Positions 1,673 to 31,046 of a stretch of DNA of 37,692 nucleotides are shown here, piece after piece. This DNA is from Motilimonas sp. E26 (GTDB lineage: Bacteria; Pseudomonadota; Gammaproteobacteria; Enterobacterales; CBDFNC01). Location of the stretch: contig NZ_JAIBHJ010000036.1 of the NCBI RefSeq assembly GCF_021278025.1, positions 1 to 37,692 on the forward strand, written 5' to 3'. The notes below the pieces were generated by a model that worked only from the letters and a program-made list of their open reading frames with translations, did no database searches and was not told the DNA's origin. The stretch's first letter is position 1, and each line of letters opens with the position of its first letter. Made by a program: the position numbers and the translations under genes.

Positions 1673-2871
1673 TGCCTAACGCCTTTTCATCTTCGCGTCC
1701 AATGTGGGCAAAAGTATTAAGATTTATTTTACCTGTATTCGTGCTATTGGTTGCGGGCTATGGGGCTTGGTATCTTGCGACTCATCGGCCACAGGCGAAA
1801 ACCCGTCCGCCTGCCAAACCTCCGATCGTGAATGTGCAAGTGTTACCCCTTACGTGGCAAGGCTATCAAGTGAGTATTAATAGTTTTGGTACCATCCAAC
1901 CACGCAGCCAAGGTGCTTTAGTTAGTCAAGTGGCAGGGAGTATCACTAAGGTGAGCCCTAATTTTGTTGTGGGTGGTTTTTTTGAGCAAGGTGAAGTGCT
2001 GGTTGAGGTAGATAATCGAGATTACTTGGCTGCGTTACAAATAGCCGAAGCTGCATTAATTCAAGCTAGGTTAGCCCTTACTCAAGAGCAAGCCAAAGCT
2101 GAACAAGCAAAACGTGATTGGCAACGTTTAGGTAAAGGCAAACCGACTGAGCTGGTGTTGCGTAAGCCTCAGTTGGCTGCGGCGCAGGCTAATGTGGCGT
2201 CTGCCAAAGCAAAGCTATCCCAAACTAAGCTTGATTTAGAGCGAACTCAAATTAAAGCGCCTTATGCCGGACGTTTGTTAACCAAGCAGGTGGATCTTGG
2301 TCAGTTTGTTGGCGCAGGTGCTAGCTTGGCCGACATTTACGCCGTGGATTATGTTGAAGTTCGCCTGCCCTTGAGCGAGCAACAGCAAGCACTGGTGAGT
2401 TTACCTGAGTTGTTTCGTCAGCAAAAAAGCTCACCTGAGCGGCCTCAGGTTACGATCAGTGCACAGTTTGGCCGTCATAGTTATAACTGGCAAGGTGAGA
2501 TAGAGCGTACTGAAGGGGCATTGGATGCCAACAGTCGGCAGCTTTATGCCATCGCGCGTATTGACGATCCTTATGGCCGACAAAACCAAGACAAGCCACC
2601 CTTGAAGATTGGTCAATTTGTTGATGCCCAAATCCAAGGTAAATCGTTAGAGCGGGTTATGGTGTTACCGCGCAATGCGGTGTATCAGGGTAACCAAGTG
2701 ATTATGTTCCAAGATGGGGTGTTACTGCGTAAAACCGTTGCGGTGATTTGGGCTGATAATGACTCGTTTATTGTTGACGGCGGGCTCAGTGAAGGTGATT
2801 TGTTAGTGACAACACCGCTGGGCAATATCGTGTCGGGCACCCGCGCTAAATTGGCCAAGGAGCAGCCATAA
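1672..2871 (+). CDS. RND efflux periplasmic adaptor (membrane fusion protein, HlyD/AcrA family)
   Basis: Periplasmic adaptor that bridges the inner-membrane pump and the outer-membrane channel; 399 aa. A single N-terminal membrane segment (about residues 11-32, ILPVFVLLVAGYGAWYLA) anchors it and there is no lipobox. Then come a beta-barrel/lipoyl segment with the typical GTIQPRSQGALVSQVAGSI (residues ~80-98), an alpha-hairpin rich in Ala, Gln and Lys (~120-185), the second lipoyl half with IKAPYAGRLLTKQVDLGQFV (~197), a beta-barrel and a membrane-proximal domain ending with LSEGDLLVTTPL. The ATG overlaps the stop of the channel gene by one base, and its own stop overlaps the pump ATG by one base (TAATG), pointing to translational coupling. 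Confidence 0.93.
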   Translation: MPNAFSSSRPMWAKVLRFILPVFVLLVAGYGAWYLATHRPQAKTRPPAKPPIVNVQVLPLTWQGYQVSINSFGTIQPRSQGALVSQVAGSITKVSPNFVVGGFFEQGEVLVEVDNRDYLAALQIAEAALIQARLALTQEQAKAEQAKRDWQRLGKGKPTELVLRKPQLAAAQANVASAKAKLSQTKLDLERTQIKAPYAGRLLTKQVDLGQFVGAGASLADIYAVDYVEVRLPLSEQQQALVSLPELFRQQKSSPERPQVTISAQFGRHSYNWQGEIERTEGALDANSRQLYAIARIDDPYGRQNQDKPPLKIGQFVDAQIQGKSLERVMVLPRNAVYQGNQVIMFQDGVLLRKTVAVIWADNDSFIVDGGLSEGDLLVTTPLGNIVSGTRAKLAKEQP

Positions 2872-5800
2872 TGCACGGATTAATCCGTTGGTTTACCCAC
2901 AACCACGTTGCCGCCAATTTATTAATGGCGCTTATTTTACTGCTGGGGTTACATGCTTTAACCCAGCGGATCCCACTGGAAGTTTTCCCTGAGTTTGAAC
3001 TGGACTTGGTCAGTGTAAATGTTGCGCTACCCGGTGCAACGCCTGCTGAAGCGGAAGAGAGCTTAGCGATTCCAATAGAAGAAGCTATTTTAGACATTGA
3101 AGGCATCAAGCAAATTACTTCCATGTCTGCGGAAGGGGCATCGCGCGTGTCGATTGAAGTGGCCTCCGGTTATGATACCTATCGCATTAAAGATGAAATA
3201 AAAAACCGCATTGATGCGTTGAACACCCTACCAGATAGCGCCGAGCGGCCGGTTATTAGCCAAACCTTACACCAACGTGAAGTGATCAGTGTCACCCTGT
3301 CAGCTCAGCTTAGTGAGCGTGAACTAAAGATTTTAGGTGAGCGAGTAAGGGATGATATTCAAAGTATCGAAGGGATTTCCCATGTCACTTTAGAGTCGGT
3401 GCGCCCTTATGAAATATCCATTGAGGTGTCTGAGCAAACCCTACGCCAATATAATTTAACCATGGCACAAGTTAGCAGTGCGGTGCAGCAAAGCTCGCTA
3501 GATCTGTCTGGTGGCAGTATTAAAACCTTGGGCGGTGAGATCTTACTACGCACTAAGGGTCAAGCTTATCAAGGCCGTGAGTTTGGCAATATTGTGGTGC
3601 GCACTGGCGCAGACGGTAGTCGGCTGTTGCTGTCAGATATTGCGGTAATTAAAGATGGTTTTGATGAAACGCCAATCCAGGCAAGGTTTAACGGTGAGCC
3701 GGCCGTGATAGTTGAGGTTTATCGTGTTGGTCAGCAAAGTGCTATTGAGGTGGCTAACAAGGTTAAAGATTATATCGAGCAAGTAAGGCCTACCTTACCT
3801 GTTGGCGTAAGTATTGATTACTGGCGTGACAGTTCAAAGGTGGTGAAAGCGCGCCTGAAAACCCTAACCGACAGCGCGTTACAAGGCTGTATCTTAGTGA
3901 TTATTTTACTCGCCTTGTTCTTGCGCCCCTCTATTGCCTTTTGGGTCACTATGGGTATACCGGTTAGTTTTATGGGCGGTTTGTTAGTGATGCCGATGCT
4001 AGGCATTACCTTAAACGTTATTTCATTGTTTGCCTTTATTATGGTGCTAGGGATCTTGGTGGATGACGCCATCGTGACCGGTGAAAACGTATATGCTCAT
4101 CAACAACGCGGTGCTACGCCGTTACAAGCAGCGATCGTAGGGACTCAAGAGGTGTCGGTGCCGGTGACTTTTGGCATTTTAACCACCATCGCCGCGTTTG
4201 CGCCGCTAGCGATGATTGAAGGCGTTCGCGGGCAAATATTTGCGCAAATTCCTTTGGTGGTGGTGCCAGTGTTATTGTTTTCTCTGGTTGAATCTAAGCT
4301 GATATTACCGGCTCATTTAAAGCATGTCCGTCTATATCAGACCAAGCCTAATCGCTTTAGTGTCTGGCAGAGTAACTTTGCCAATGGTTTTGAGCGCTTC
4401 ATTTTACGCTTTTATCGCCCTGTCTTAGCGGCTGTGGTGCATCGCCGTTATCTATCTATTGCAACGGCTTTAGGCATTGCCTTGGTGGTTTTTACTATGG
4501 TGGCCAGTGGTTGGACCCGCTTTGTGTTCTTTCCTCGCGTGCCTTCTGAAACAGTGCGAGCCACGTTAGTGATGCCGGCTGGAACGGCGTTTGCGACCAC
4601 TGACTTTTATATCCAAAAAATGCTCGATGGCGTGGCGCAATTACAAGACAAATATCGCGATCCAGTAACAGGCGAGAGTGTGATATTAGATGTTTTTGCA
4701 ACTACGGGTTCCGATGGCGGCGGAAGCAGCGGCGATACCGCGAAAGGGCGAGTGATGTTTGAATTAGAGCCGCCAGAAACGCGCACCATGGACATTTCTA
4801 CAAATGAGTTAGTAAAAGAGTGGCGCGCATTAATTGGCCCAGTTCCTGGTGTTGAAAGTTTATCATTTCGGGCGGAAATTGGTCGCGGCGGCGCGCCATT
4901 AGATGTGCAATTGAGCGCCCGAGATTTTAGTACCTTAAAGCCTGCCAGTGACGATCTTAAGCGCAAGTTAGCTGAGTATCCTGGGGTGTTTGATATTGAG
5001 GACAGCTTAGCCAAAGGTAAAACCGAGCTGCAGTTAAGCATTAAACCACAGGCGCAGGCACTGGGTTTAACGCTGAGGGATTTAGCCACGCAAGTTAGGC
5101 AGGGATTTTTTGGCGATCAAGTGCAGCGAATTCAGCGTGGTCGTGATGATGTAAAAGTGTATGTGCGTTATCCCAAAGCTGAACGAGAGTCGTTATTTCA
5201 CCTGCAGAATATGTTGATCCGGACTCAATCGGGCACGGCGGTGCCCTTTACTGAGGTGGCGACAGTGACGGTGCTGCAAAGCCCTGCCAGTATTACCCGC
5301 AAAGATCGTAAGCGGGTGATTAATATTACTGCCGACGTGAATAAAGAAACCGCTGATATTGAAGCGATCAAGCGAGATATATCGGCATTTTTAGTGCTCT
5401 TAAAGCAACAATACCCTGACTTAAGCTACAGCTTAGAAGGGGAGGCGAAGGAACAGAGCGAATCCTTTACGAGTTTAGCCATAGGTTTAGTGTTTGTACT
5501 ATTTGCGATTTATGCGCTGCTGGCGATCCCGTTTAAATCTTACACTCAACCTTTTGTGGTTATGTCGGTGATCCCATTCGGTGCCATTGGTGCCATTATG
5601 GGGCATTGGATCATGGGGATGCCCCTCACTATTATGTCAATGATGGGCATGCTTGCCTTAACCGGAGTGGTGGTCAATGATTCCTTAGTGCTGGTGGATT
5701 ATATTAACCGTCAACGCAGTAAAGGTATGGCGGTTAAAACCGCGGTGCGCCGCGCGGGTGTGGCACGGTTTAGGGCTGTAATATTAACCTCTATTACCAC

Positions 5801-12695: not shown

Positions 12696-13523
12696 TTAGT
12701 TGAGTAAATCGCTCAGCGCTTTACTCTCTTCTAGCATGGCTTCTTTGGCATTTAAGATATTGCTTAAAGATAGCTCTAGGCGGATCGCTAACGCTTTGTT
12801 GTAGTGTTTTTCAATTTCTTCTTCACTCCAATCTTGTTGCCAAGCATGGTTGAAGAAACTGGCCATGCAAATAAACCCAGCATCTTCATTAAATGTTTCT
12901 GCGCTTAAAGGGGTCAATTGATCTTCGATGGCATGAACAAAGCTATCGGAAAACTTCCAGCGTTTAGCAAGCTCGGCACCGACCTCTGCATAGTTAAAAC
13001 CAAGTACTTGTGCTTCTGCTTCTTCGCGGCTTAAACCTTGCTCTATTTTAGCGGACATACGCTGTTCGTCTTCTTCGGTGTCGGCAATTAAAATAATCAG
13101 CTCGCCTAAATTATGTAACATGGCGCAAGTGAAGGCAGTATCCGGTGCGTGGCTGGTTTGCTTTGCAAGAGATTTACTGATGCTGGCAACGCGAAAGGTG
13201 TTACCCCAAAATGCCTTTTGATCGAAGTTATCAAAATGTTTAAATGAGGATGAGATACCTGAGGCCATGACCAAAGTACGCACAGTGTTAAAGCCAAGGC
13301 GGATCACGGCATCTTCAATACTGGTGACATCTTTACCACGACTAAAATGAGCTGAGTTGACTAAGCGTAATACTTTGGCACTTATTACTGGGTCTAAGGC
13401 TATTTTATTTGCGATTCCGACAATATCGGCATCGTCATTGTTAAATGTTTGTATTAATTCCTGTACGACTTTGGGAATGGTGGGCAATTTATCTAGCTTG
13501 CTAAACAGTATTTGAATATCCAT
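12696..13523 (-). CDS. HDOD-domain protein (first of two paralogues)
   Basis: Single-domain HDOD protein of 275 aa. HDOD proteins are HD-GYP relatives that usually lack phosphodiesterase residues and act in signalling, often next to c-di-GMP or two-component genes. Seen here: LPTIPKVVQELIQTF (start of the domain), DPVISAKVLRLVNSAHFSRGK, VTSIEDAVIRLGFNTVRTLV, and FTCAMLHNLGELI near residue 130. The HD pair is replaced (HN), as in the family, so it is probably not an enzyme. GAGG lies five bases before the ATG. It shares domain, length and most motifs with the gene at 16404-17231. A perfect CRP-like site lies 118 bp upstream, with a plausible promoter (TTCAAC, 16 bp, TATATT). Confidence 0.88.
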   Translation of the reverse strand: MDIQILFSKLDKLPTIPKVVQELIQTFNNDDADIVGIANKIALDPVISAKVLRLVNSAHFSRGKDVTSIEDAVIRLGFNTVRTLVMASGISSSFKHFDNFDQKAFWGNTFRVASISKSLAKQTSHAPDTAFTCAMLHNLGELIILIADTEEDEQRMSAKIEQGLSREEAEAQVLGFNYAEVGAELAKRWKFSDSFVHAIEDQLTPLSAETFNEDAGFICMASFFNHAWQQDWSEEEIEKHYNKALAIRLELSLSNILNAKEAMLEESKALSDLLN

Positions 13524-16403: not shown

Positions 16404-17231
16404 TTAGTGACCGAGTGACATGGCCAATTCATTACCTTGATGCTGCAATTCATCAAGTTGTGACGCCAGTGATTCAGGGTTGATACTCAAATGCTCCGCT
16501 AACGCTTTTGGGAAACGTCCAACAATTGCTGCAGCTGGCACGCCTGCATTCCAAGCAAAGTTTACAAATACCGATAACCGGATCAAAATTGCTTCGGCCG
16601 ACACCTCTTCAAATGATAATGGATCAAGCTGTTGTTCAATGGCATTAATGAAGGTTGCTGAAAAATTCCAGCGTCGAGCTAGCTCTACACCTACCTGGCT
16701 GTAGTCAAATCCTAAGATTTCACGCTCAGCCTCAATACGGCTTGCACCTTGGTTCATTGACATGTTTACGAGTGCCATTTCTTCTGGCAAGCTGGATTGC
16801 AGTAAGATTTCGCCGATATTGTGCATCATGGCACAGGTAAAGGCGGTTTCAGGCTCTACAGTGGTGTGCTTGGCGAGGGCTTTCGCTATGGTTGCTACGC
16901 GAAACGTGTCGGACCAAAATTTATTTTTGTCAAAACCAGGCGTGGCAGGAAAAGCACTACTTATTCCGGATGCAATAACAATACTACGCATGGTGTTAAA
17001 GCCTAAGCGAATAACTGCTTGCTCTATTGATGTCACTTCTTTGCCGCGGCGATAGGCAGCCGAGTTAGCCATCTTTATTACTTTTGCACTTAAAGATTGG
17101 TCCATCGCTATTTTTTTAGCGAGTACATCGATACGCGCATTATCGTCACCAAAGCTTTCCATTAGCTCGGCCAGTAGAGCGGGCACGACTGGGAGTTGTT
17201 TTAGTTTGGAAAATACTTCGTTTAATTGCAT
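16404..17231 (-). CDS. HDOD-domain protein (second of two paralogues)
   Basis: HDOD signalling protein of 275 aa, the same length as its paralogue at 12696-13523. Shared motifs: LPVVPALLAELMESF, MDQSLSAKVIKMANSAAYRRGK, VTSIEQAVIRLGFNTMRSIVIASGISSAF, and FTCAMMHNIGEIL (HN in place of the HD pair). The start at 17231 has AGGA nine bases upstream; an in-frame start 45 bp further up gives an unusual hydrophobic leader and no ribosome site. It converges with the RimK-like gene. Together the two HDOD genes bracket the GNAT-peptidase/RimK pair, either from duplication around it or by chance. Its target is unknown. Confidence 0.88.
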   Translation of the reverse strand: MQLNEVFSKLKQLPVVPALLAELMESFGDDNARIDVLAKKIAMDQSLSAKVIKMANSAAYRRGKEVTSIEQAVIRLGFNTMRSIVIASGISSAFPATPGFDKNKFWSDTFRVATIAKALAKHTTVEPETAFTCAMMHNIGEILLQSSLPEEMALVNMSMNQGASRIEAEREILGFDYSQVGVELARRWNFSATFINAIEQQLDPLSFEEVSAEAILIRLSVFVNFAWNAGVPAAAIVGRFPKALAEHLSINPESLASQLDELQHQGNELAMSLGH

Positions 17232-17562
17232 TGCGCGGATTCCTGCTTGGAGAAAAATAATATCAACTAGAATCATAGCAGGATGCTATTGCCTGCGACT
17301 ATGTTTGCAAGCTTGATCTGTTTCACTAATTCCGCATAATGTGCGTTTAACGGCACAAATAAATCGCTATTATCGATTCATTTATCACTAAGGCTGGAAA
17401 TTTATTCATTAATTAGACTATTCTTAGTGCGTTTGTCGACAGGAGTCTTTATCTAGGCATGGTTGCCGTTCTCTATATCTGGAGTGACCATGGTGCTATT
17501 TACTCTCTACTTCCGGCGCTTGCCATTAGGTAAGCTTGCTTCTATACAGCTTGGAGCTGGAT
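17232..17562. other. Gap upstream of the second HDOD gene
   Basis: This gap must contain the leftward promoter of the HDOD gene and the rightward promoter of the small helical protein. I see an imperfect GCAGG...CCTGC repeat near 17280-17300 but no convincing promoter pair. The right part holds a short ORF, listed separately. Confidence 0.35.
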
Positions 17563-17958: not shown

Positions 17959-18894
17959 GTGCAAGGATATGATGTCATTGGCGATGTCCACGGCCGTGCT
18001 AAACAGTTAGTCACTTTACTGCAACGTCTTGGTTATGAAATCCAAGGCGAGGCTTATTGTCATGCTTCACGCCAAGCTATTTTTATTGGTGATATTATTG
18101 ATTATGGTCCCGAGCAGCGAGCGACCTTAGCTATTGTTCGGAATATGGTTGCGGCGGGTAGCGCTCAAGTTATTTTAGGTAATCACGAGTTTAATGCCGT
18201 AGCCTTTGCTACCCCGGATCCCAAAGACGCTAAGCGGTTTTTACGTCCCCATACCAGTAAAAATCGAGTGCAACATAAGGCTTTTTTAGCTGAATATGCA
18301 GATGATCCTATTGCTTATAAAGAAACGATTAGTTGGTTAAAAACCTTGCCTTTATTTCTTGAACTTGATGGCGCCGCTTTTATTCATGCGGCATGGTCTA
18401 ATGACTTAATAGAGCAAATAAGGCCCGAGCTCAATGCTGATAACAGCCTGCCTGATAAATTGTACGTCAGCGCAACGAAACGTGGTAGTTGGCAATTTCA
18501 GGTAGTTGAGCAGTTATTGAAAGGACCCGAAATAACCTTACCTCAGGGCTATGTTTTCAATGATAAACATGGTCATCAACGCAACGATATTCGTGCTCGC
18601 TGGTGGCTACAAAATCCGCTTAGTTATCGAGAGCTTGCGATCGTACCTGAGGGAGAAGAAGGCAAAATACCCGCACAGCCTATTATCCAGCCACTGCAAA
18701 GTTTTGCTGTTTCACGTCTTGTGTTTATCGGCCACTATTGGTTAAGAGGGACCCCTCGGCCGCAATGTCGTCAGGTGGTTTGTACTGATTACAGTGGTGA
18801 TGCTAAGTTAACAGCCTATCGCTGGTCATTTGAAGCTGAAGCGGATGCAATGAATTTTGTACAGGTTGGTGAGTCAGAAGTTGGTATGCCTTAA
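17959..18894 (+). CDS. Calcineurin-like metallophosphatase (PrpE/ApaH-like)
   Basis: Metallophosphoesterase of 311 aa starting at GTG 17959, chosen because AAGGAG lies five bases upstream. Metal-site motifs are in order: GDVHG (8-12), GDIIDYGP (44-51) and GNHE (74-77), then His in FIHAAWSND (~140) and His in FIGHYWLRG (~265). This is the bis-metal arrangement of ApaH/PrpE-type serine/threonine or dinucleotide phosphatases. Whether it acts on Ap4A, phosphoproteins or another substrate cannot be told. It stands alone, with the CsrB RNA on the opposite strand beyond its end. No clear terminator of its own was found; the CsrB hairpin lies 75 bp downstream but has only a weak U-tract in this direction. 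Confidence 0.85.
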   Translation: MQGYDVIGDVHGRAKQLVTLLQRLGYEIQGEAYCHASRQAIFIGDIIDYGPEQRATLAIVRNMVAAGSAQVILGNHEFNAVAFATPDPKDAKRFLRPHTSKNRVQHKAFLAEYADDPIAYKETISWLKTLPLFLELDGAAFIHAAWSNDLIEQIRPELNADNSLPDKLYVSATKRGSWQFQVVEQLLKGPEITLPQGYVFNDKHGHQRNDIRARWWLQNPLSYRELAIVPEGEEGKIPAQPIIQPLQSFAVSRLVFIGHYWLRGTPRPQCRQVVCTDYSGDAKLTAYRWSFEAEADAMNFVQVGESEVGMP

Positions 18895-18960
18895 GTGACG
18901 TGATGGAGTTTAAAAAGGGGGCTTATCCAAGACTCTGGCTAATGAGCGTAAATTGCAGCT

Positions 18961-18994
18961 AAAAAAACGGGACGACACTCGAAAGTGTCGTCCC
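18961..18994 (-). terminator. Terminator of the CsrB-family RNA
   Basis: A perfect 11-bp stem, GGGACGACACT (18969-18979) with AGTGTCGTCCC (18984-18994), has a CGAA/TTCG loop. On the minus strand it is followed by a run of seven U (A-run 18961-18967 on the plus strand). The orientation fits a leftward transcript. Confidence 0.93.
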
Positions 18995-19272
18995 TTATAG
19001 TCAAAACATCATATTCCGTGATGTAAGGTGCTCCCTGCGCTCCCTGACTTATTACCTGATCCCTAGGTTTATCCGTTTCTCACGTCCTGTGAGTTGTCCT
19101 TTATTTGGCCATCCTAGCCTAACAAATCATCCTGATTCGTTTTCTGTCTCCATCCTGGAGGTGTCCTTTATGCTACTTCCTGTAGCGTGTCCATTCATCT
19201 TCCTGATTGCCAGATATCCTATCTGACATTGAGACCAAACATCCTGTCCGTGTCTCGTTGCTTCCTTGCGGG
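18961..19272 (-). ncRNA. csrB: CsrB-family regulatory RNA (CsrA antagonist)
   Basis: A non-coding RNA on the minus strand, about 312 nt. It carries 18 GGA motifs in roughly 240 nt, many in hairpin loops: CTCAC-AGGAC-GTGAG, CTCC-AGGAT-GGAG, CTAC-AGGAA-GTAG, AGATA-GGA-TATCT. The segment AAAGGACACCTCCAGGATGG matches E. coli CsrB as I recall it, and another shared motif is TCAGGATGATT. It ends in a strong terminator (GGGACGACACT stem, then seven U). The promoter fits at 19278-19307. Such RNAs bind and titrate the translational regulator CsrA and are usually activated by a GacA/UvrY/BarA-type system; no clear TGTAAG-N6-CTTACA box was found. The 5' end is predicted, not measured. No protein gene overlaps it. 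Confidence 0.9.
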
Positions 19273-19277
19273 ACTAA

Positions 19278-19307
19278 ATATAAGTGATTTTGCATGAGGC
19301 TGAGCAA
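19278..19307 (-). promoter_or_regulatory. Predicted promoter of the CsrB-family RNA
   Basis: On the minus strand TTGCTC (19307-19302) and TTATAT (19283-19278) are separated by 18 bp and would start transcription near 19272, just before the first GGA. The hexamers are read by eye. Confidence 0.55.
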
Positions 19308-19700
19308 GCTAAAAATAAAAAAAATAAGGGAAAACCTATATGTTGTTTATGTTGATGTTGTTAAGGTGTTGTTATTAATGGTTTATTTTGTTTTGGCTTC
19401 TGTTTTTTCGGTGGTAGATAGTAGGGTTATCTGATAAATAAAAAGAGAATAACTTACGCTTGCTATGGCTAATGTCTCACAAATATTTTTTATTTTTGAA
19501 ATAGGGTTACCATTTATCGCTATTATCCCCAGTTCGTCTGCTGATTTTGACAATTCATCATGACAATGTGATGACTTTATCGCCACTTGTTGTGTGATCA
19601 TCAGCACATTTGTTTTTCTAAGTTACCTTTGATACGAAACATTCCGTTCGTCTCTGACCCCTACCTAATAAGTAGTTGTGAGGTTTACTTATGGATAGCC
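19308..19700. other. Upstream region of the CsrB RNA, no supported gene
   Basis: About 390 AT-rich bases between the CsrB promoter and the terminator of the 119-residue gene. A 74-codon frame exists on the minus strand but has no ribosome site. I looked for the GacA/UvrY-type box and found only a TGTGAGA half-site (minus strand, about 19475-19481), roughly 205 bp from the predicted start of the RNA. Confidence 0.4.
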
Positions 19701-19726
19701 AAAAAAAAGGCCGATAAAAATCGGCC
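19701..19726 (-). terminator. Terminator of the 119-residue gene (minus strand)
   Basis: GGCCGAT (19709-19715) and ATCGGCC (19720-19726) form a perfect 7-bp stem with a 4-base loop, followed on the minus strand by eight U (A-run 19701-19708). It lies 25 bp beyond the stop codon of the gene at 19751. Confidence 0.92.
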
Positions 19727-19750: not shown

Positions 19751-20110
19751 TTAGTGTAATTTGAAGCTGTTTAAGCGAGCCAGCAGTGTGTTTAGGGTTG
19801 CTGGTTCGATAGTTTTACAAATGTCATCAATGCTTTTAGTCTTGAATAGTTCGCTTAGTAGCGTGCATACGTAAGTTAAAGGTGCATTTTCAAAAAGTTT
19901 TGGATTGTGTAAATAATCACGTCCGCGTTCACGAACCCATTCAGCTGCGTCAACAGGGACGCTGAAACCACTGCTTTTCATGGTGTTATGAAGGGCAATT
20001 AATTGTGTACGATAATGTGTTAAATCAGAGCTTAGAGTGTTTTGGAAAGCGGCTACAGAGGCGAGAGCTTGAGCACCAGGTAAAATCTCTAACTTATGAA
20101 TGTCGTTCAT
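19751..20110 (-). CDS. Hypothetical protein, 119 residues
   Basis: A free-standing gene with ATG at 20110 (GGAG five bases upstream, a better start than the frame from 20155) and its own terminator. The protein begins MNDIHKLEILPGAQALASVA and is mostly helix, with no membrane segment, signal or cysteine cluster. The part RGRDYLHNPKLFENAPLTY followed by a Leu-rich helix faintly recalls the Y-x-x-(D/N)P pattern seen in DUF6508-type proteins, but I do not claim membership. The good ribosome site, own terminator and position beside the CsrB RNA argue that it is real. The function is unknown. Confidence 0.7.
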   Translation of the reverse strand: MNDIHKLEILPGAQALASVAAFQNTLSSDLTHYRTQLIALHNTMKSSGFSVPVDAAEWVRERGRDYLHNPKLFENAPLTYVCTLLSELFKTKSIDDICKTIEPATLNTLLARLNSFKLH

Positions 20111-20543
20111 TGTATCTCCAAAATTTTGCTTTAATAAGTTAATAACTAGCCGCATCTAATGGCATCTAGCTTGAAATATGATTTGAGATTTGACCCATCT
20201 AATAGCTCAGTAGGCTACAGAATATTTATGTCAATATGACGACATCCAGCTCTTTTTTGCTTATTTGAGTAAGCTATTTTTGATAGTTAAACGAGCTACG
20301 TTCTAAGTTGACTGGTATAGTTTTAGCTGAGAAAGAGAAAAGCGCAATTTAAGAGTGACAATTTGTTGATAGGTAAGATGAGCGGCAGGAAAAACGTGAT
20401 AGCCCGCAAAGAAATTCCTGTTTCCTGCCAGTGCCGGAAAGCTATGGCGCTATTGCTATACCTGTAGCGTTTTTATCCCTGAAAGCGAAAGTTTGCCGTA
20501 AACATGCTTTATCTGGCTGCGATAGTTCTAAGTATTACACTGG
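20111..20543. repeat. Gap between the unknown gene and menE, with a 9-bp inverted repeat
   Basis: No gene is supported here. GGCAGGAAA (20384-20392) and TTTCCTGCC (20421-20429) are perfect inverted arms 28 bp apart, about 115 bp past the end of menE on the minus strand; they may mark the end of the men transcript, but lack a U-tract. The right edge, near 20150, repeats GCATCTA twice (around the start of the unknown gene's leader). An open frame at 20504-20791 runs antisense to menE and is not counted. Confidence 0.4.
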
Positions 20544-21935
20544 TTAATTATGCTTGCCAGCATCCTCAACTGCGAGTTGTGTGGCCTGTTGTTGTAGTTT
20601 TTTTCTATTTGGTTTTAACCCCTGCCATTGTGACCAAGGCAAAATATGCTTTGGTCTTTGCCAAGGAGCGAGCAGTTGTTTACTGTCCAGCTGTAGTTGT
20701 CTTGGCTGCGGTGCTCCTATCCAATCAACAAAAGCGGCGGCAATTTGACCAAACTCTGTGTTGCGAACGGGCACTATTATTAGGTTCTTGATATATGGCA
20801 GGCTCAGTAAGACTTGTTCTATTTGTTCTGGCTGTACGTTTTCACCACCCGAAATAAACATATTATCTTTGCGGCCATGGATAGAGAGGTGCCCAGCTGT
20901 TCTCGCACCTAGGTCTTTACTAGCAAAACCAAGACCTTGGTCAACGGCAATTAAGCGACCTAATTGTCGATAGCCCATAAACAAACAGGCTCCCTTTAAT
21001 ATGATTTCACCTTTACTTATTTCTACTTCGCGATCGGGTAATAATTGATATTGCAGCGGCTGTTGGCTGGACGGTGTTAATTCAATACTGGCCACTTGCG
21101 AGCTCATCTCGGTTAGGCCGTAACTGGCAAAACATCTAAACGGGCTATTAGCTAGTTGTTTTATAAGGTAGTTATCTAATGCTGCTCCGCCAACTAAGAC
21201 ATAACGCAGTTGATTATTCGTGAATATAGCCGGTTGCTGCAGTAAACGGTAAGCCTGAGTGGGCACAAGGGAAGCGTGAGTAATGGGATAGTGTGTTAGG
21301 TCTTTAGCTATCACTTTGCTACCCAAAGCAATGCTACCGCCGACGAAAAATGCGCGAAAGACTAATGCGATGCCGCCAATATGAAACAGCGGTAGGCTGA
21401 GTAGCCAGCAGTCTTTGGCGTGAAACGGAATTAAGGTTTGTGAACCCAACGCGCTGTAATAATGGTTACTTAAGCTATGTTGTGCGGCTTTAGCCTCGCC
21501 ACTGCTACCCGAAGTAAACACTAGAGTACTTGCTTGCGCTAAGCTGATTAAGGCTTGCTTATTATTTGGATTTGACTGGTGAATATCAATGCGTGTTATA
21601 CCCGCTAGCGCAACCGGAGTTGGCGCAAAGTAATATTTTATTCCAGCTTGTCTGCAGCGCTGTTGTAGCTCTTTTTGGCTAAAGATTGGATTAAGCGGAC
21701 AAAAAATAATACGTTGGCGCAAGCAAGCAAACATCATGATTAGTAAGATCAGCGCATCGTCATGGATCACTGCAAGTACCTCCCCTTGCGGAACTTGGCT
21801 TAACGATATGGCTGATATTTTATTATCAAGCTCCTCGTAGCTGAGCTTGGTACCATCATGTGAAAGGTAAATGGCAATCGCATCCCCTTGATTGCTTGCG
21901 TGTTGCTGTATCGGACAAGGCATCACTTCGGCCAT
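20544..21935 (-). CDS. menE: o-Succinylbenzoate-CoA ligase
   Basis: Activates o-succinylbenzoate with ATP and CoA in menaquinone synthesis; 463 aa, normal for MenE. ANL-family motifs are visible: phosphate loop TLVFTSGSSGEAKAAQHSL (~residue 140), LPLFHIGGIALVFRAF, the SYGLTEMSSQVAS region, and the hinge with GRKDNMFISGGENVQPEQIE. ATG 21935 has GGAG five bases upstream. Its start overlaps menC by 13 bp. It is last in the menFDHBCE operon. The sequence is full-length with no sign of damage. Confidence 0.94.
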   Translation of the reverse strand: MAEVMPCPIQQHASNQGDAIAIYLSHDGTKLSYEELDNKISAISLSQVPQGEVLAVIHDDALILLIMMFACLRQRIIFCPLNPIFSQKELQQRCRQAGIKYYFAPTPVALAGITRIDIHQSNPNNKQALISLAQASTLVFTSGSSGEAKAAQHSLSNHYYSALGSQTLIPFHAKDCWLLSLPLFHIGGIALVFRAFFVGGSIALGSKVIAKDLTHYPITHASLVPTQAYRLLQQPAIFTNNQLRYVLVGGAALDNYLIKQLANSPFRCFASYGLTEMSSQVASIELTPSSQQPLQYQLLPDREVEISKGEIILKGACLFMGYRQLGRLIAVDQGLGFASKDLGARTAGHLSIHGRKDNMFISGGENVQPEQIEQVLLSLPYIKNLIIVPVRNTEFGQIAAAFVDWIGAPQPRQLQLDSKQLLAPWQRPKHILPWSQWQGLKPNRKKLQQQATQLAVEDAGKHN

Positions 21936-22861
21936 ACTTGCTCCATTTCTGAAGTGTTCAATGTATGGTTTTGCTTATCGCAAAAATATTTTTCGGTATC
22001 TAACCCAGGAGCTTCGTTGGGGGTCCATTTGCCTGCCAGAGTCGCCAGCACACTAAGTCCATATTGGCTTTCAAATGCGCAGCTAAGGATCGCACGCTTT
22101 TGCTGTTGTTTAGCTAACGCTAATAGTTGTTCAATACGTTTAAAACTGCCTACTAGCATAGGTTTAATGATAAAAGCGGTAATCGCTTGATGACTAAAAG
22201 CTGCTAACGGCCACATTGGCTGTTGCAGCTGTTCATCAAGTGCGATTGGCAATTGATATCGCTCTGCAAGGTACAAGCTGTCGCTTAACATTGCGCAGGG
22301 CTCTTCGATAAATACAATATTATTTTTTGGCAGCTGGCTGACAAATGCAGCCCCTTGTCCGCGATCCCAGCCTTGATTAGCATCGAGGCGAATTTGCAGT
22401 TGCGGGTTAAGTTTGACCAGTGTGTGAATAATATCCAGCTCTATGTTTGGGGCAAGACGAGCCACTTTAAGTTTGATTTGTGTTGGGTGCTTGAGGCTGA
22501 GGTATTGTGTGTGTATCTGTTCAATGCTGCCTTGTAATAAAGGAACATCGGCCGAAACCTGACTAGGCGTGATACCTTGATGTAAGCAATCCCAAGCAAA
22601 AGCGCTACTGGCGCAGTGAAATTGATGTTTAAGCTGCCCCGTTTTTACTGCTGTTATTATTTCAGCGATGGCTTGCTCTAAGCTTTCAGGGCTAAAGCCG
22701 GGAAGCGGTGCTATTTCGGCCCTCACTTCGCGGTTTAACTCAATGTTAAAGGCCTTAACAAGTGCGATATCTCGGTCGTTAAGAGTATGCTGCGCAAATG
22801 TCATTGGTCGTTTAAAGGCCAATGAGGTACGGTAAATTGCAATATCGCGTAGCATACTCAT
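21923..22861 (-). CDS. menC: o-Succinylbenzoate synthase (enolase superfamily)
   Basis: Dehydrates SHCHC to o-succinylbenzoate, the step before MenE; 312 aa. Enolase-superfamily residues are all recognisable: the lysine motif IKLKVARL, metal ligands Asp in RLDANQGWD, Glu in FIEEPC and Asp in ALDEQLQ, and Lys in FIIKPMLVGS. The start is at the first ATG, six bases after the menB stop; a second ATG two codons in is an alternative, and no strong ribosome site supports either, so coupling to menB is likely. It overlaps menE by 13 bp. Confidence 0.94.
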   Translation of the reverse strand: MSMLRDIAIYRTSLAFKRPMTFAQHTLNDRDIALVKAFNIELNREVRAEIAPLPGFSPESLEQAIAEIITAVKTGQLKHQFHCASSAFAWDCLHQGITPSQVSADVPLLQGSIEQIHTQYLSLKHPTQIKLKVARLAPNIELDIIHTLVKLNPQLQIRLDANQGWDRGQGAAFVSQLPKNNIVFIEEPCAMLSDSLYLAERYQLPIALDEQLQQPMWPLAAFSHQAITAFIIKPMLVGSFKRIEQLLALAKQQQKRAILSCAFESQYGLSVLATLAGKWTPNEAPGLDTEKYFCDKQNHTLNTSEMEQVWPK

Positions 22862-22867
22862 GTGCAG

Positions 22868-23710
22868 TTACGGATTGCGGCCAAATTTTTCAAAGTTTGG
22901 CGGACGCTTTTCGTTAAACGCATTGCGACCTTCTTGCCCTTCTTCGGTCATATAGAACAACATGGTGGCATTACCAGCTAGCTCTTGTAAGCCTGCTTGA
23001 CCGTCACAGTCTGCGTTTAGGGCCGCTTTTAGGCAACGCAACGCCATTGGGCTGTTTTGCAGCATTTCTTTACACCATTGCACGGTTTCAAGTTCTAGTT
23101 GCTCAAGTGGCACCACGGTATTCACTAAGCCCATTTCAACCGCCTCTTGGGCGTTATACATGCGGCATAAAAACCAAATTTCACGAGCTTTTTTCTGGCC
23201 GACAATGCGCGCCATATAGCTTGCTCCCCAGCCGCCGTCAAATGAGCCCACTTTGGGGCCAGTTTGGCCAAATTGAGCATTTTCGGCGGCGATGGTTAAG
23301 TCAGCCATCATATGTAATACGTGTCCACCACCTACTGCATAGCCCGCCACCATCGCCACTACAGGTTTTGGACAAGTGCGAATTTGACGTTGAAAATCCA
23401 GTACGTTTAAGTGATGTACGCCGGATTCGTCTTGGTAACCTGAATCACCGCGTACTTTTTGGTCGCCGCCTGAGCAAAAGGCCAAGTCGCCCTGACCGGT
23501 AAGAATAATCACGCCAATTTGATCGTCGTAACGGGCTTCGTTTAACGCATGAATCATTTCTTTTACCGTAAGTGGACGAAATGCATTGCGCACTTGTGGG
23601 CGGTTTATGGTGATTTTGGCGATGCCATCGGCTTTATGGAAAAGAATGTCTTGGTAATCTTGAGAAAAATCTTGCCACGCTAATGCGGGCTTTATTTGCG
23701 AAGTTGTCAT
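22868..23710 (-). CDS. menB: 1,4-Dihydroxy-2-naphthoyl-CoA synthase
   Basis: Closes the second ring to give DHNA-CoA; crotonase family, 280 aa (E. coli 285). Seen: the N-terminal [13 protein letters not shown], the oxyanion-hole segment [49 protein letters not shown] in pieces, and [12 protein letters not shown] with the C-terminal [15 protein letters not shown] typical of MenB. ATG 23710 has AAGG upstream; the longer frame needs a TTG. It follows menH by 38 bp and precedes menC by 6 bp. Confidence 0.95.
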
Positions 23711-23748
23711 AACCAGCCTTGAATGGGTCAAAAATAAAAAAGTATCGC

Positions 23749-24552
23749 TTATGGGAGTTTACCGAGTATAAGGCGACTTATCTGATTAGCGTATTCTATT
23801 GGCTTGGCAAAGTGAATATTATGACCCGCCTCAGTAAAAAAGACTTTATTTAGCTGTGGGGTTGTTTTTTTTAAGATGTTGGCCAGCTGCGTAAATTTTA
23901 GATCCTGCTCGGCAACAAAATAACTAACAGGGCAAATTGCCTCAGAAATGACATGGCACAGGTTTTCTTGTTTGCCGAGTGACGTTGCTAACAACATTTT
24001 TCCTAAGGCTTTACCGTCGTTATGGCTACGCAGCTGACAAAGTTTTTGTCTTTGTTGTTCAGATAAATCTGCAAACACAGCTTGCAGATACCAATCGAGC
24101 AATACTTGATTAAGAGGTTCGGTGGTAAAGCGCTGCGCCCAGTTTTTATCATGGCTAATACGGGCCGCTTTTTCATTTTCTTGAATCAACCCAGTGTGAG
24201 CCGATTCTACAATTAACTGGCAAACTTGGCTTGGGTACATTTGTAAATAGTGCAACGCAATGCGGCCGCCGAGTGAGTAACCAACTAGATGGCAACGGGT
24301 GACCGTTAATGCTTGTAAGCATTGCTGGATAAGCTGGCAGCATTGCTGAAATGCTTGCGGTGCCGATAAGGTGACATTTTGGCTGTCACCGTGGCCTGGG
24401 AGATCAATGGTTATCCAGTTTTGCTCTGGGGCGAGATGGGCAATAACTTGTTGCCAGTCTTGACCGCTGCCTAAAAAGCCATGAATAAATAGTACTGGCG
24501 TGTTTTCGTGTTGCAGTTGATATTGGCAAGCCAGGGGTAAATTTGTCTTCAT
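23749..24552 (-). CDS. menH: SHCHC synthase (alpha/beta hydrolase)
   Basis: Eliminates pyruvate from SEPHCHC to form SHCHC; 267 aa. The alpha/beta-hydrolase features are present: the oxyanion [10 protein letters not shown], nucleophile Ser in [14 protein letters not shown] (about residue 93), Asp in FVAEQDLKF and His in [11 protein letters not shown]. Its ATG overlaps the stop of menD by one base (TAATG), so the two are translationally coupled, as expected for consecutive steps. Confidence 0.92.
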
Positions 24553-26300
24553 TAGGCGCTTAAGTCGGGCTGGAGCAAGTAAGCGAAATCAAGTTGTTTT
24601 ATTTGCGCGGCAATAGTGGTGATCATTTCACTACTGGCTTTGGCAGGAACAGTTATTTCAATCAAGGTCGCACCTGGCTCAATTAAGGCAGAGGCGTAAT
24701 CTAGTTCAAACTCTTGTTGCTCTTTTGGTTGCATGTAATTAACGCCAAACATAGCCGCAGCATTGGCAAAGTTTAAGCCGTGTGGCAGTTGGTAGCATTC
24801 ACGGGCAGTTTGTTGATCATCGGGTAATGGTAAAAGGTTGAAAATACTGCCGCCATCATTATTGAGCACTATTACAACAAATGGGTTTTTAAGCTGTTTT
24901 AACAGGGCCATAGAGTTGAGGTCATGAAGCAAGGACGTGTCGCCAAGCAGTAAAGTGACGGGGCGATGATCTAATATTTTGCTAACCCCTATGGCACAGG
25001 CAAGTAAGCCATCAATGCCACTGGCTCCGCGATTAGTGAATATTTGTTGCTGTTTTGAATTTGCCTCGGCAAACATATCCATTAGCCGTACTGGTAAACT
25101 ATTACCAATAAATAAAGCACTGTTGTCTGGAACTAAACGTGATAAGCCGTGCGCGACCGAAAACTCTGATAATTCATGTGACTGAGCAGCGATAAGCTGA
25201 CTGATTTCAGCATCCGCTTGGTAAAGGTGCTCCGCCCAAGGGTGATGTTGTGCAACGGGATGGGCTGTGAGCCAAGTAACGGGGTCGATGTGAAAGTAGC
25301 TACCCATGCCATGGCTTGGGTCCATCAAGTCTGCCTGGCTTTGCACGCCAATAAATTGAGCCGAACTAGCTTGTAAAAACTGCTGTAAGCGTTTTGATAC
25401 CAATCGGCAGCCAAATTGAATGATAAGTTCAACTTGGTTGAGGGCGGCGTAAAAATCAGGGTGATGCAGTAGCTGATCATAGTAATGTAACGACCAAGGG
25501 TGCCCTTTGCCACTGGATTGAATGTCCATTAACAATGGCCAACCTAAGGCCTGAGCAAAGCTGGCTATTTCATAAGCTTGTTCAGTATTGGCTAATTGAC
25601 CCGCAATAATTAGCCCTTTTTTAGTCTGTAATTCAGGCCAATTATCAATTGGTAGTAACTTGCTTGGCGGAACGGATTTATTAATGTACGGCGATTCACT
25701 GCGTAACCAAGGGTTAATAGACGCTAAGTAATGACGTAGGTCTTGGCTTTTTTCTTTCGGGTAAAACGGCTCACGGAAAGGGCAGTTAATGTGAATGGGT
25801 CCTGCTTGTTGCTGTTGCAAATATAAGGCTTGGCCAATTTGTGCTAGTAAATAGTTAGCGTTAATTTCAGTGCCAGCTGGTGCTAAATTAACCGATGTCA
25901 CCACATGAGAAGCAAATATGCCCACTTGATCGATAGCTTGGTTAGCACTGCATTGCAATAGTTCGGTGGGGCGATCTGCGGATAAAATTATTAATGGCAC
26001 GCCAGTGAGCTTGGCCTCAATGACGGCCGGATATAAGTTAGCCACCGCTGTGCCTGATGTGGTGATGATCGCCACTGGCGCCTGCTGCGCCTTGGCTGCA
26101 CCGAGCGCGCAATAACCTAAACCGCGCTCATCAAAGTGGCTGTGTAAGGTAATGCCGTGATGTTCATGGGCGGCTAAAGTCAGTGGCGTTGAACGAGACC
26201 CCGGCGCCATGAAAATCTGATTGATGCCACCGCGGTACAAACTTTCAATAATTAACTGTGCCCATAAAAGACTAATGTTGCTAGCGGTAGTATGTTTCAT
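24552..26300 (-). CDS. menD: SEPHCHC synthase (thiamin-diphosphate enzyme)
   Basis: Joins isochorismate and 2-oxoglutarate to SEPHCHC using thiamin diphosphate; 582 aa. Motifs: PGSRSTPLTLAA and HFDERGLGYCALGAAKA (N-terminal domain), TTSGTAVANLYPAVIEA, SADRPTELLQCSANQAIDQ, the TPP-binding GASGIDGLLACAIGVS and GDTSLLHDLNSMALLKQL followed by IVLNNDGGSIFNLLP. GAGG lies six bases before the ATG. It follows menF by 28 bp. The ThDP cofactor links it to the thiamin operon elsewhere in the window. Confidence 0.95.
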   Translation of the reverse strand: MKHTTASNISLLWAQLIIESLYRGGINQIFMAPGSRSTPLTLAAHEHHGITLHSHFDERGLGYCALGAAKAQQAPVAIITTSGTAVANLYPAVIEAKLTGVPLIILSADRPTELLQCSANQAIDQVGIFASHVVTSVNLAPAGTEINANYLLAQIGQALYLQQQQAGPIHINCPFREPFYPKEKSQDLRHYLASINPWLRSESPYINKSVPPSKLLPIDNWPELQTKKGLIIAGQLANTEQAYEIASFAQALGWPLLMDIQSSGKGHPWSLHYYDQLLHHPDFYAALNQVELIIQFGCRLVSKRLQQFLQASSAQFIGVQSQADLMDPSHGMGSYFHIDPVTWLTAHPVAQHHPWAEHLYQADAEISQLIAAQSHELSEFSVAHGLSRLVPDNSALFIGNSLPVRLMDMFAEANSKQQQIFTNRGASGIDGLLACAIGVSKILDHRPVTLLLGDTSLLHDLNSMALLKQLKNPFVVIVLNNDGGSIFNLLPLPDDQQTARECYQLPHGLNFANAAAMFGVNYMQPKEQQEFELDYASALIEPGATLIEITVPAKASSEMITTIAAQIKQLDFAYLLQPDLSA

Positions 26301-26328
26301 AGGAGCCTCTTATGGTTAAACAACTGAG

Positions 26329-27609
26329 TTAGTTTAGTTTGAATAGTGACAATGGCGTCGCTATTTTATGCTCTAACTCTTGCCATTCTAGCGCGGGATC
26401 TGAGCCTTTAACTATTCCTGCACCGGCAAATAATGTAATTTGATTATGTTGGATCAAGGCGCTGCGAATAGCTACCGCAAATTGGCTTTGTTGTTGACTT
26501 AAAACACCAATGGCGCCTGCGTACCAGCCTCTAGAATAGGGCTCATTTTGTTTGATAAATGCGAGCGCTGACTTTCTTGGAGTGCCACCCACAGCGGGGG
26601 TTGGGTGCAGCGCATTAAGTAAATCGTGGTCGCTGGCGTCTGGTTTTAAATAGGCGTGAATACGTTGCTTGAGGTGTTGTAGTTGGTTGAGTTTTAATAT
26701 GCTTACTTTATCAAGTCCAATATCTAAACTGACCTTGCTGAGCTGCGCTAAAATATCATCAAGCACTAATTGATTTTCATGCTTTATTTTGTGGTCATGG
26801 AGTAGGGTGTGGCTCAGTTTTTCATCTTCTTCAGAGGAGATGCCTCGTGGCATGGTGCCAGCGAGTGATTCTGTGGTTAGACGTGCCCCGCTACGTAGAT
26901 ACAAACGCTCAGGCGTACAGCCGATAAAGTGTGAATCGGGCGTAAACGAAAACATAAATTGAAAACAGTTAGGATTAACCATTTGCCATTGGTGCAATAG
27001 TGCGTAGTGATCCACGCTGTTTGAGCTGGTTAATTGAGTTCGACGGGACAGCACCACCTTAGCAGTGTGTTGCTGAAATTGCTCATCGGTTACTTGTTCT
27101 ACTAAGTTACGCCAATCCTGCTTATTTGGCGTGTCTTGCCGCTGCAAGATATGGATAGACTGTCTCGTTAATGTTTCAGCTGGGTTAAGTGAGTCCAGTA
27201 ATGCTAGGGTTATGTTTACTTGGCTAGCAAAATCAGATGTGGCCCAATATAGGTTACAAACTAGCTTAGTGACTCTGCCTTGGCGACGAATTTCCAAACG
27301 CGGCAATACAAATCGGCAGTGTGGAAAATCGGGCCAAGTTGCATGGTTTGAAAAGCCCATGCCACCGTAAAGTCTTGCTTTATTGATGTTTTCTGGCAGC
27401 TCGGCTTGATCTGTGTACCAAGCTTTGCCAATCGCCGCGACTTCACCTTGATCGTCTTTATCACTTAAATAAATTTGTGGATAGTGGGTTTGGGCTTTGA
27501 GCCAGCCAAGTAAAGAAACACTAGGTAATGAAAAACTCAAACTAAGGAAAACGCCTTCGGGCTGTTTGAGTTTAAGTAAGGCGTGTTTTAAGGCATTAAA
27601 AGCTGACAT
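26329..27609 (-). CDS. menF: Menaquinone-specific isochorismate synthase
   Basis: Converts chorismate to isochorismate, the first committed step. From ATG 27609 it has 426 aa (E. coli 431) and begins MSAFNALKHALLKLKQ, like other MenF proteins; a start at 27684 would add 25 residues unlike the family. Neither start has a clear ribosome site. Anthranilate synthase-type core motifs: AKVVLSRRTQL, FIGCTPERLYLRSG, TESLAGTMPRG, EDEKLSHTLLHDHKIKHENQLV, HPTPAVGGTPRK and YSRGWYAGAIGV. It is the first gene of menFDHBCE and faces menA across a 195-bp divergent gap. Confidence 0.93.
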   Translation of the reverse strand: MSAFNALKHALLKLKQPEGVFLSLSFSLPSVSLLGWLKAQTHYPQIYLSDKDDQGEVAAIGKAWYTDQAELPENINKARLYGGMGFSNHATWPDFPHCRFVLPRLEIRRQGRVTKLVCNLYWATSDFASQVNITLALLDSLNPAETLTRQSIHILQRQDTPNKQDWRNLVEQVTDEQFQQHTAKVVLSRRTQLTSSNSVDHYALLHQWQMVNPNCFQFMFSFTPDSHFIGCTPERLYLRSGARLTTESLAGTMPRGISSEEDEKLSHTLLHDHKIKHENQLVLDDILAQLSKVSLDIGLDKVSILKLNQLQHLKQRIHAYLKPDASDHDLLNALHPTPAVGGTPRKSALAFIKQNEPYSRGWYAGAIGVLSQQQSQFAVAIRSALIQHNQITLFAGAGIVKGSDPALEWQELEHKIATPLSLFKLN

Positions 27610-27804
27610 CAATATTTCGCAAAGGCTGGTAAAGCAACTTAAGGGGTAAGTCCAAACTACGTCTGTAGCGCCTGAAATCATCATTTCAACGGTGTTTGAA
27701 CATAAAGGCTTGCTAATTTAACTGAAACTTAGAGAAAATGCAGCCTTATCGGTGCTTGGATATAGATGCAAACGCATTCTGAGATTTAATTAGGTATTAG
27801 TATT

Positions 27805-28725
27805 TTGACTCAAAAAAAATCATGGTTTTCTATTTGGTTGCCTGCTATTCGCCCTCGCACGTTGCCTCTCGCCTGCGCTTCGATTGTTCTGGCTGCTGGG
27901 TTAGCATGGCAGCATCAGGTATTTAACCCTTGGATTCTGATTTTGTGTTTGAGCACGGCAATTTTATTGCAAATCATTTCTAATTTGGCGAATGACTACG
28001 GCGATGCCGTTACAGGTGCCGACAACGAGCAGCGTATTGGCCCACAACGCACGATGCAAACCGGTCTTGTAACGCAGCAGCAAATGAAAACCGCGATCGG
28101 TTTAACGACGATACTGGCGGTCGCATCTGGGCTTATTTTATTAAATTATGTGTTTGCGGATCATTGGCAGCAGATGCTGGTTTTTGTTGGGTTGGGCTTA
28201 TTGTCTATTTTGGCCGCGGTGACTTACACCATGGGTAAGCACCCATATGGCTATATGGGGTTAGGCGATCTGTCGGTGTTTATATTTTTTGGTTTATTGG
28301 GGGTGTTAGGTAGCTTTTACTTATATGGCTTAGCCTTGCATGCAGTTTTGATTTTACCTGCGGTAAGTTGTGGTTTGTTAGCGACGGCGGTACTTAATAT
28401 CAACAATACCCGAGATATCGACACCGACAAGCAAGCCGGTAAACACACTTTAGCGCTACGTTTAGGGCGCACACAGGCCTGTCGTTATCAGTGGTGGCTG
28501 TTAGCTGGGGCGGTGAGCAGTACCTTACTTTATCAATGGCAATTACCTTTTAGCAGTTTTAATTATTTATTTTTGTTAGCGCTTTGGCCATTGATGCAAG
28601 CCGCTCGTACTTTGCAACTTTGTCAAGATGGTGAACGTTTAAACGGCGCTTTGAAACAAACCGCACTCGCTAGCTTTGGTTACTGTTGTTTATTAGCTTT
28701 AGGTTGGGTTATGACATCGCCATAG
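27805..28725 (+). CDS. menA: 1,4-Dihydroxy-2-naphthoate polyprenyltransferase
   Basis: Inner-membrane enzyme attaching the polyprenyl tail to DHNA; 306 aa, UbiA family. The first Asp-rich motif is NLANDYGDAVTGADNE (about residues 61-76) and the second NINNTRDIDTDKQAG (about 193-207); eight or nine membrane helices fill the rest. The start is a TTG at 27805: there is an in-frame stop at 27787-27789, no ATG between, and the reading (MTQKKSWFSIWLPAIRPRTLPLA) fits the family N-terminus. It is divergent from the men operon, so production of the DHNA precursor and its prenylation may share control. Confidence 0.95.
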   Translation: MTQKKSWFSIWLPAIRPRTLPLACASIVLAAGLAWQHQVFNPWILILCLSTAILLQIISNLANDYGDAVTGADNEQRIGPQRTMQTGLVTQQQMKTAIGLTTILAVASGLILLNYVFADHWQQMLVFVGLGLLSILAAVTYTMGKHPYGYMGLGDLSVFIFFGLLGVLGSFYLYGLALHAVLILPAVSCGLLATAVLNINNTRDIDTDKQAGKHTLALRLGRTQACRYQWWLLAGAVSSTLLYQWQLPFSSFNYLFLLALWPLMQAARTLQLCQDGERLNGALKQTALASFGYCCLLALGWVMTSP

Positions 28726-30900: not shown

Positions 30901-30907
30901 GCGGGTT

Positions 30908-31004
30908 CTTGTCGGAGTGCCAAAGGGAGTTTTTCCTTACGGCTGAGACTGCAATTGCAGGATCCGTGGAACCTGATTGGGTTAAGACCTACGAAGGGAA
31001 CAAG
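30908..31004 (+). promoter_or_regulatory. TPP riboswitch (thi-box)
   Basis: The conserved thi-box is present: GGAGTGCC, GGCTGAGA, CCGTGGAACCTGAT and the closing ACGAAGGGAA. The end helix P1 is CTTGT (30908-30912) with ACAAG (31000-31004). Thiamin diphosphate binding should lower expression of thiC and the genes behind it. The variable arm is short (CTGCAATTGCAG, itself self-complementary). Confidence 0.97.
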
Positions 31005-31046
31005 GCTAAACCTTTAAAAAACAGATCTAATATAGGTTTATACTTC

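Follow-up and report, generated by a model that had tools for sequence, protein, structure and literature searches.

A csrB gene in Motilimonas sp. E26 and its relatives within the genus and the order

We analysed 37,692 nucleotides of Motilimonas sp. E26 (contig NZ_JAIBHJ010000036.1, positions 1 to 37,692; the window hereafter), for which a preliminary description, made from the letters alone, had placed a CsrB-family RNA with 18 GGA motifs on the minus strand between 19272 and 18961. An Rfam scan of the whole window returned three matches, the highest-scoring of which is to RF00018 (CsrB/RsmB) on the minus strand at 19269–18959, with 107.2 bits (E 4.1e-28) against a curated cut-off of 71 bits and with the full model covered (positions 1–356 of 356). 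The covariance-model search that had been proposed thus gives a full-length CsrB match, and the region is the one described, with ends that lie three and two bases away from those given. The GGA richness also stands, with a different count: we find 20 motifs rather than 18 on the minus strand of 19272–18961. Dinucleotide shuffles of the locus (2000 in all) averaged 11.8 motifs (sd 2.2); their maximum of 18 was reached three times and 20 never. Elsewhere in the window, the GGA-richest 312-nt stretches contain 9 motifs on the minus strand, away from the locus, and 10 on the plus strand. We assign 18959–19269 to a CsrB-family RNA of about 311 nt with 20 GGA motifs on the basis of the Rfam score together with the folding and covariation described below. 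No tandem repeat was found inside this RNA.

The segment said to match E. coli CsrB was located by blastn at 19170–19106 of the minus strand, where 65 nt are 81.5% identical to the annotated csrB of strain K-12, and this core is the part of the gene closest to E. coli CsrB. At an E limit of 10, 5375 of 5426 E. coli genomes have a blastn match to window csrB, and among the matches listed (five) all span the 65-nt core, which is 21% of the query. E. coli CsrB is 369 nt long with 22 GGA motifs, compared with 311 nt and 20 for the window gene. The two share GGA hairpins, the core, a terminator, a UvrY-type upstream site and a nearly identical CsrA, but outside the core little of window csrB can be aligned.

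The gap was described as free of protein genes, and no open reading frame of at least 60 aa overlaps the RNA. The sole ORF of that size in the gap (19383–19607, 74 aa) was rejected as coding, having no Pfam match and internal stops in its closest ortholog. Upstream, on the same strand as csrB, is a gene for a 134-aa protein (minus strand, 19751–20155) with no NCBIfam or Pfam match; in each of the three other Motilimonas genomes the orthologous csrB has a relative next to it, and this upstream neighbour, common to all four, marks a conserved locus. Downstream is a convergent metallophosphatase gene (plus strand, 17959–18894; Pfam Metallophos), with a relative at the corresponding place in G001 and G002; in G003 that place is taken by a 309-aa ORF which does not cluster with the metallophosphatase at 55% identity.

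Several other features of the window were observed in passing. A TPP riboswitch (plus strand, 30903–31016; 69.5 bits against an Rfam cut-off of 54.3) is followed directly by a 644-aa ORF that by eye resembles thiC. Near the contig end, a tRNA-like stretch (plus strand, 75–130) covers positions 10–63 of 71 in the Rfam model and has a GTG anticodon by eye; it is not called by ARAGORN, and its acceptor stem looks degenerate by eye. The ORFs of 20544–28725 resemble by eye a run of menaquinone synthesis genes, and the best family score of the MenE-like ORF, the only one of them scanned, is below the curated cut-off. Two similar proteins of one cluster, the first with an HDOD domain (Pfam), are encoded on the minus strand at 16404–17276 and 12696–13523, near two long ORFs that appear GGDEF/EAL-like by eye.

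A strong terminator had been proposed for the RNA, and at 18994–18969 of the minus strand there is indeed an 11-pair stem followed by a T run, in which relatives show double-sided changes at 9 of the 11 pairs (helix 11), as for a Rho-independent terminator. The upstream 134-aa gene has a terminator of its own on the minus strand at 19726–19709, a 7-pair stem followed by eight T, that is conserved in the closest relative. Because csrB and the upstream gene have separate terminators, csrB appears by its sequence to be a separate unit. The promoter proposed earlier survives in part: a -10 element, TATATT, is present at 19282–19277 of the minus strand, and TATATT or TATAGT occurs near the start in 18 of 19 Motilimonas copies, but a sigma-70 consensus scan gave no -35 match on the csrB strand and hence no -35/-10 pair. 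From the spacing to the -10 element, transcription is predicted to start at about 19269. A missing -35 box would fit an activator-dependent promoter.

Hairpins with GGA in their loops had been described for the RNA; in the predicted fold, 11 of 12 hairpin loops hold a whole GGA, the twelfth hairpin being the terminator, and 15 of the 20 GGA motifs are unpaired. The folding energy is well below that of shuffled sequences (z = -5.9 against 100 shuffles). Covariation was examined in an alignment of 15 CsrB sequences out of the 19 in the genus, leaving out the four longer, divergent sequences of locus C (see below), and a questionable pairing between the 5' end and the T run was omitted when the consensus structure was scored. 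Standard pairs fill 98.1% of cells and double-sided changes occur at 21 of 59 pairs, values reached in none of 500 shuffles, the structure having been taken from the same alignment, which favours it. The covariation score over the 15 relatives is 0.302 compared with 0.172 for shuffled alignments, and displacing the partner columns by 1 to 3 positions lowers pairing to 32.5–46.9%. One of the five covariation measures, further pair types, was not above shuffles, 496 of 500 being as high. The pattern of substitutions indicates that the csrB hairpins are kept through compensatory change.

Published UvrY binding repeats include TGTGAGAGATCTCTTACA for csrB, TGTGAGACATTGCCGATA for E. coli csrC and TGTGAGACATTGACCATT for Salmonella csrC, as given in the available part of PMC4682653. 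Upstream of window csrB, on the minus strand at 19481–19464, we identified a putative activator site that the preliminary description did not contain, TGTGAGACATTAGCCATA, which is centred at about -203 and agrees at 15 of 18 letters with the best of these three. The agreement is 15 of 18 with each of the two csrC sequences, and the window site is closer to the enterobacterial csrC site than to the csrB site; unlike csrC, however, the window RNA fits the CsrB model. The same portion of PMC4682653 places the upstream crosslinking regions of the E. coli and Salmonella csrC promoters between -223 and -101, compared with a centre at about -203 for the window site. When 418 stretches of 1190 nt were letter-shuffled, none gave a score of 15.

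Similar UvrY-type sites occur throughout the genus, being the best or equal-best upstream match in all 19 Motilimonas copies, with scores of 12 to 18. Ties occur in L004 and L017, and also in L008, where the tied site is that of the tandem neighbour. Six copies (L003, L004, L011, L016, L017 and L018) score 12 or 13, in the range of shuffled stretches (12 is reached by 283 of 418 and 13 by 65 of 418), so that for these the evidence is the constant position of the site. All 13 copies in groups A and B have the site centred between -201 and -203; in group C three copies of four have it at -191 (the other lacks a clear -10), and in group D it is at -178 or -179. We considered helical phasing of these positions (about -202, -191 and -179 by group), but the intervals do not fit whole helical turns cleanly and we claim nothing from them. 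A weak IHF-like sequence, TAACAACACCTTA, is found on the minus strand at 19374–19362 (about -105) and agrees with 8 of 9 positions of the IHF consensus. Singly it is no better than chance, as 99 of 200 shuffles score as well; an IHF-like sequence is present at an equal offset in six of nine group A copies, and exceeds chance singly only in L009 (3 of 200 shuffles).

The protein partners expected of a CsrB RNA are encoded in the same genome, in which the searches for csrA and UvrY suggested earlier were both productive. A single CsrA was found (89.6 bits), and 51 of its first 52 residues are identical to the solved chain 1y00_A, a carbon storage regulator. UvrY scores 425 bits against a family cut-off of 280, and BarA is present with 48% identity over query residues 1–915 of 918. 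There is also a CsrD-like protein, a moderate match with 31% identity over residues 1–630 of 646; a search of the 1.5-kb flanks did not find mreB, which adjoins csrD in E. coli. The UvrY-type site, together with the presence of the UvrY and BarA genes, suggests that csrB may be activated by UvrY. In the mechanism we propose, the BarA kinase would drive phosphorylation of UvrY, which would bind about 200 bp upstream and switch on csrB transcription; the GGA loops of the RNA of about 311 nt would then each offer a place for CsrA, so that one RNA holds several dimers and frees the mRNA targets of CsrA, and the CsrD-like protein may aid decay of the csrB RNA. Titration of CsrA is the most likely role of the window RNA, and membership of the CsrB family suggests that the RNA would control the CsrA regulon.

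Window csrB is not the only gene of its kind in the genome, which contains four CsrB genes above the cut-off. Since there are three more, the window RNA is one of a set and not a sole controller, and the overall capacity to titrate CsrA would be that of all its members added together. The four Motilimonas genomes, which also make up the whole family, have 4, 4, 4 and 7 CsrB genes, all 19 matches being over the cut-off, and the GGA count of the matched stretch ranges from 13 to 25 across these copies, compared with 20 in the window copy. Flanking genes and a tree sort the 19 copies into four loci, A to D. Locus A, that of the window, has the 134-aa gene as its neighbour in all four genomes and is tandemly doubled in G002 and G003, the latter having three further dispersed A-type copies. 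Loci B and C, of which C is the long type, are each present in four of four genomes, and locus D occurs in two of the genomes, which have no more than its right flank in common. Tree support is 94/97 for A and 89/81 for B, but only 77/50 for C, which has a long branch.

The presence of more than one csrB with upstream UvrY/GacA boxes recalls CsrB1 and CsrB2 of Shewanella oneidensis, where control is by BarA/UvrY, although the available text of PMC3171408 describes two CsrB genes in that species against the four to seven of the four Motilimonas genomes. Vibrio tasmaniensis is closer in number, with four CsrB genes (csrB1–4) that arose via duplication and fall into synteny groups; it is of a different genus, and the part of PMC6262261 available to us mentions no tandem repeat within an RNA. 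With four genes by duplication already described there, seven looks high for the CsrB type without being new in kind. We also compared 36 genomes from elsewhere in the order, hand-picked, mostly for several matches in an earlier survey, and not a census. In these the most copies over the cut-off were five (G012 and G378), a figure that may be an undercount because 31 candidate stretches were scored per genome, compared with all or all but one in Motilimonas, and in which long repeat-built RNAs show as several overlapping matches. The preliminary survey of the order scored three stretches per genome and undercounts more. A separate observation concerns G012 (L084, G012:C1:4531800-4539000), where five CsrB-type genes stand in tandem about 700 nt apart, each with a UvrY-type sequence upstream; of 18 letters, between 12 and 17 match, and 12 is no more than background.

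Such multiplicity raises the question of whether the window copy is decayed or silent, redundant given the other three genes; the four paralogs of the genome and the gain and loss of copies across the genus leave room for redundancy. The sequence argues otherwise, as the RNA is 95% identical to its G001 ortholog, compared with 82% in an alignment of 339 nt made up almost wholly of upstream sequence, the -10 element, terminator and UvrY-type site are intact, and the GGA count is undiminished at 20. We regard decay as very unlikely. That the stretch instead belongs to a protein gene, or to an extended UTR of the 134-aa gene, with an incidental likeness to CsrB, might be suggested by the 74-aa ORF between the RNA and the upstream gene and by the fact that this gene is on the csrB strand. 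It is, however, hardly credible given the stops in the ortholog of that ORF and its lack of a Pfam match, the terminator at 19726–19709 that closes the upstream gene, and an Rfam score far above the cut-off. The locus is thus almost certainly a csrB gene, whose RNA would be activated by BarA/UvrY and would titrate CsrA beside the products of three other CsrB genes. The original finding is correct in substance and ordinary: a known RNA family gains one member, with its expected partners present. The window copy is what a specialist would expect, and the Rfam scan picks it up.

The surrounding set of CsrB genes is more interesting than the window copy. At locus C the RNAs reach upstream of the Rfam match and, if counted from their predicted start to where the match ends, are 407, 372, 474 and about 642 nt long in L003, L013, L015 and L019, with 26, 27, 26 and 38 GGA motifs respectively. 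The longest of these (L019/L085, minus strand of contig C117 in G003), for which the start was placed from the spacing in relatives together with a weak -10 picked out visually, contains 3.3 copies of a 54-nt GGA unit and is the ortholog of L054 in the genome of the window. More extensive arrays are found in two genera from other families of the order. In L077 of genus g2 (2228–3070) a 51-nt unit is repeated 12.6 times, and 62 GGA motifs fall within 798 nt; in L081 of genus g12 (1883–2640) the unit is 81 nt, repeated 6.7 times, and 61 GGA motifs fall within 712 nt. Tandem repeats of 50–81 nt are present in L077, L078, L079 and L080 (g2) and in L081 (g12), and L083 (g12) has two copies of a 133-nt unit; the uncut cases among these six hold 44–62 GGA motifs. 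UvrY-type sites lie upstream of the uncut arrays examined, in a scoring set that included the L077 site itself, such that the full score of L077 is circular and its close relatives also score higher than they otherwise would.

In genus g2 the promoter region of the gene is present in all 11 genomes searched, at 18 places. Setting aside five places cut by a contig end, the number of repeats varies from 2.8 to 12.6 over 13 uncut places in eight genomes, counts that come partly from draft assemblies, where repeats can collapse. Long CsrB transcripts as such have precedent in the S. oneidensis csrB2 transcript of about 700, one of three (about 700, 600 and 450) seen by Northern in the accessible portion of PMC3171408. 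Among the titles and abstract openings listed in searches of open-licence PMC papers, none reported a tandem-repeat CsrB, which is not proof of absence, and in the available part of PMC11882849 the words "tandem repeat" occur within the title of a reference.

The genus presents four to seven CsrB genes per genome against a single CsrA in the one genome tested. We suggest tentatively, as a proposal that falls a little short of an even chance, that in these gammaproteobacteria the capacity of the CsrA sponge may evolve as a quantity, both by csrB gene duplication (four to seven genes in Motilimonas) and by expansion of tandem repeats within the RNA (an estimated 640–840 nt with 38–62 GGA motifs), with repeat number slipping up and down like a dial. 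The repeat-built RNAs, which vary in length between close relatives, constitute a testable natural series for asking why bacteria keep many CsrA sponges.
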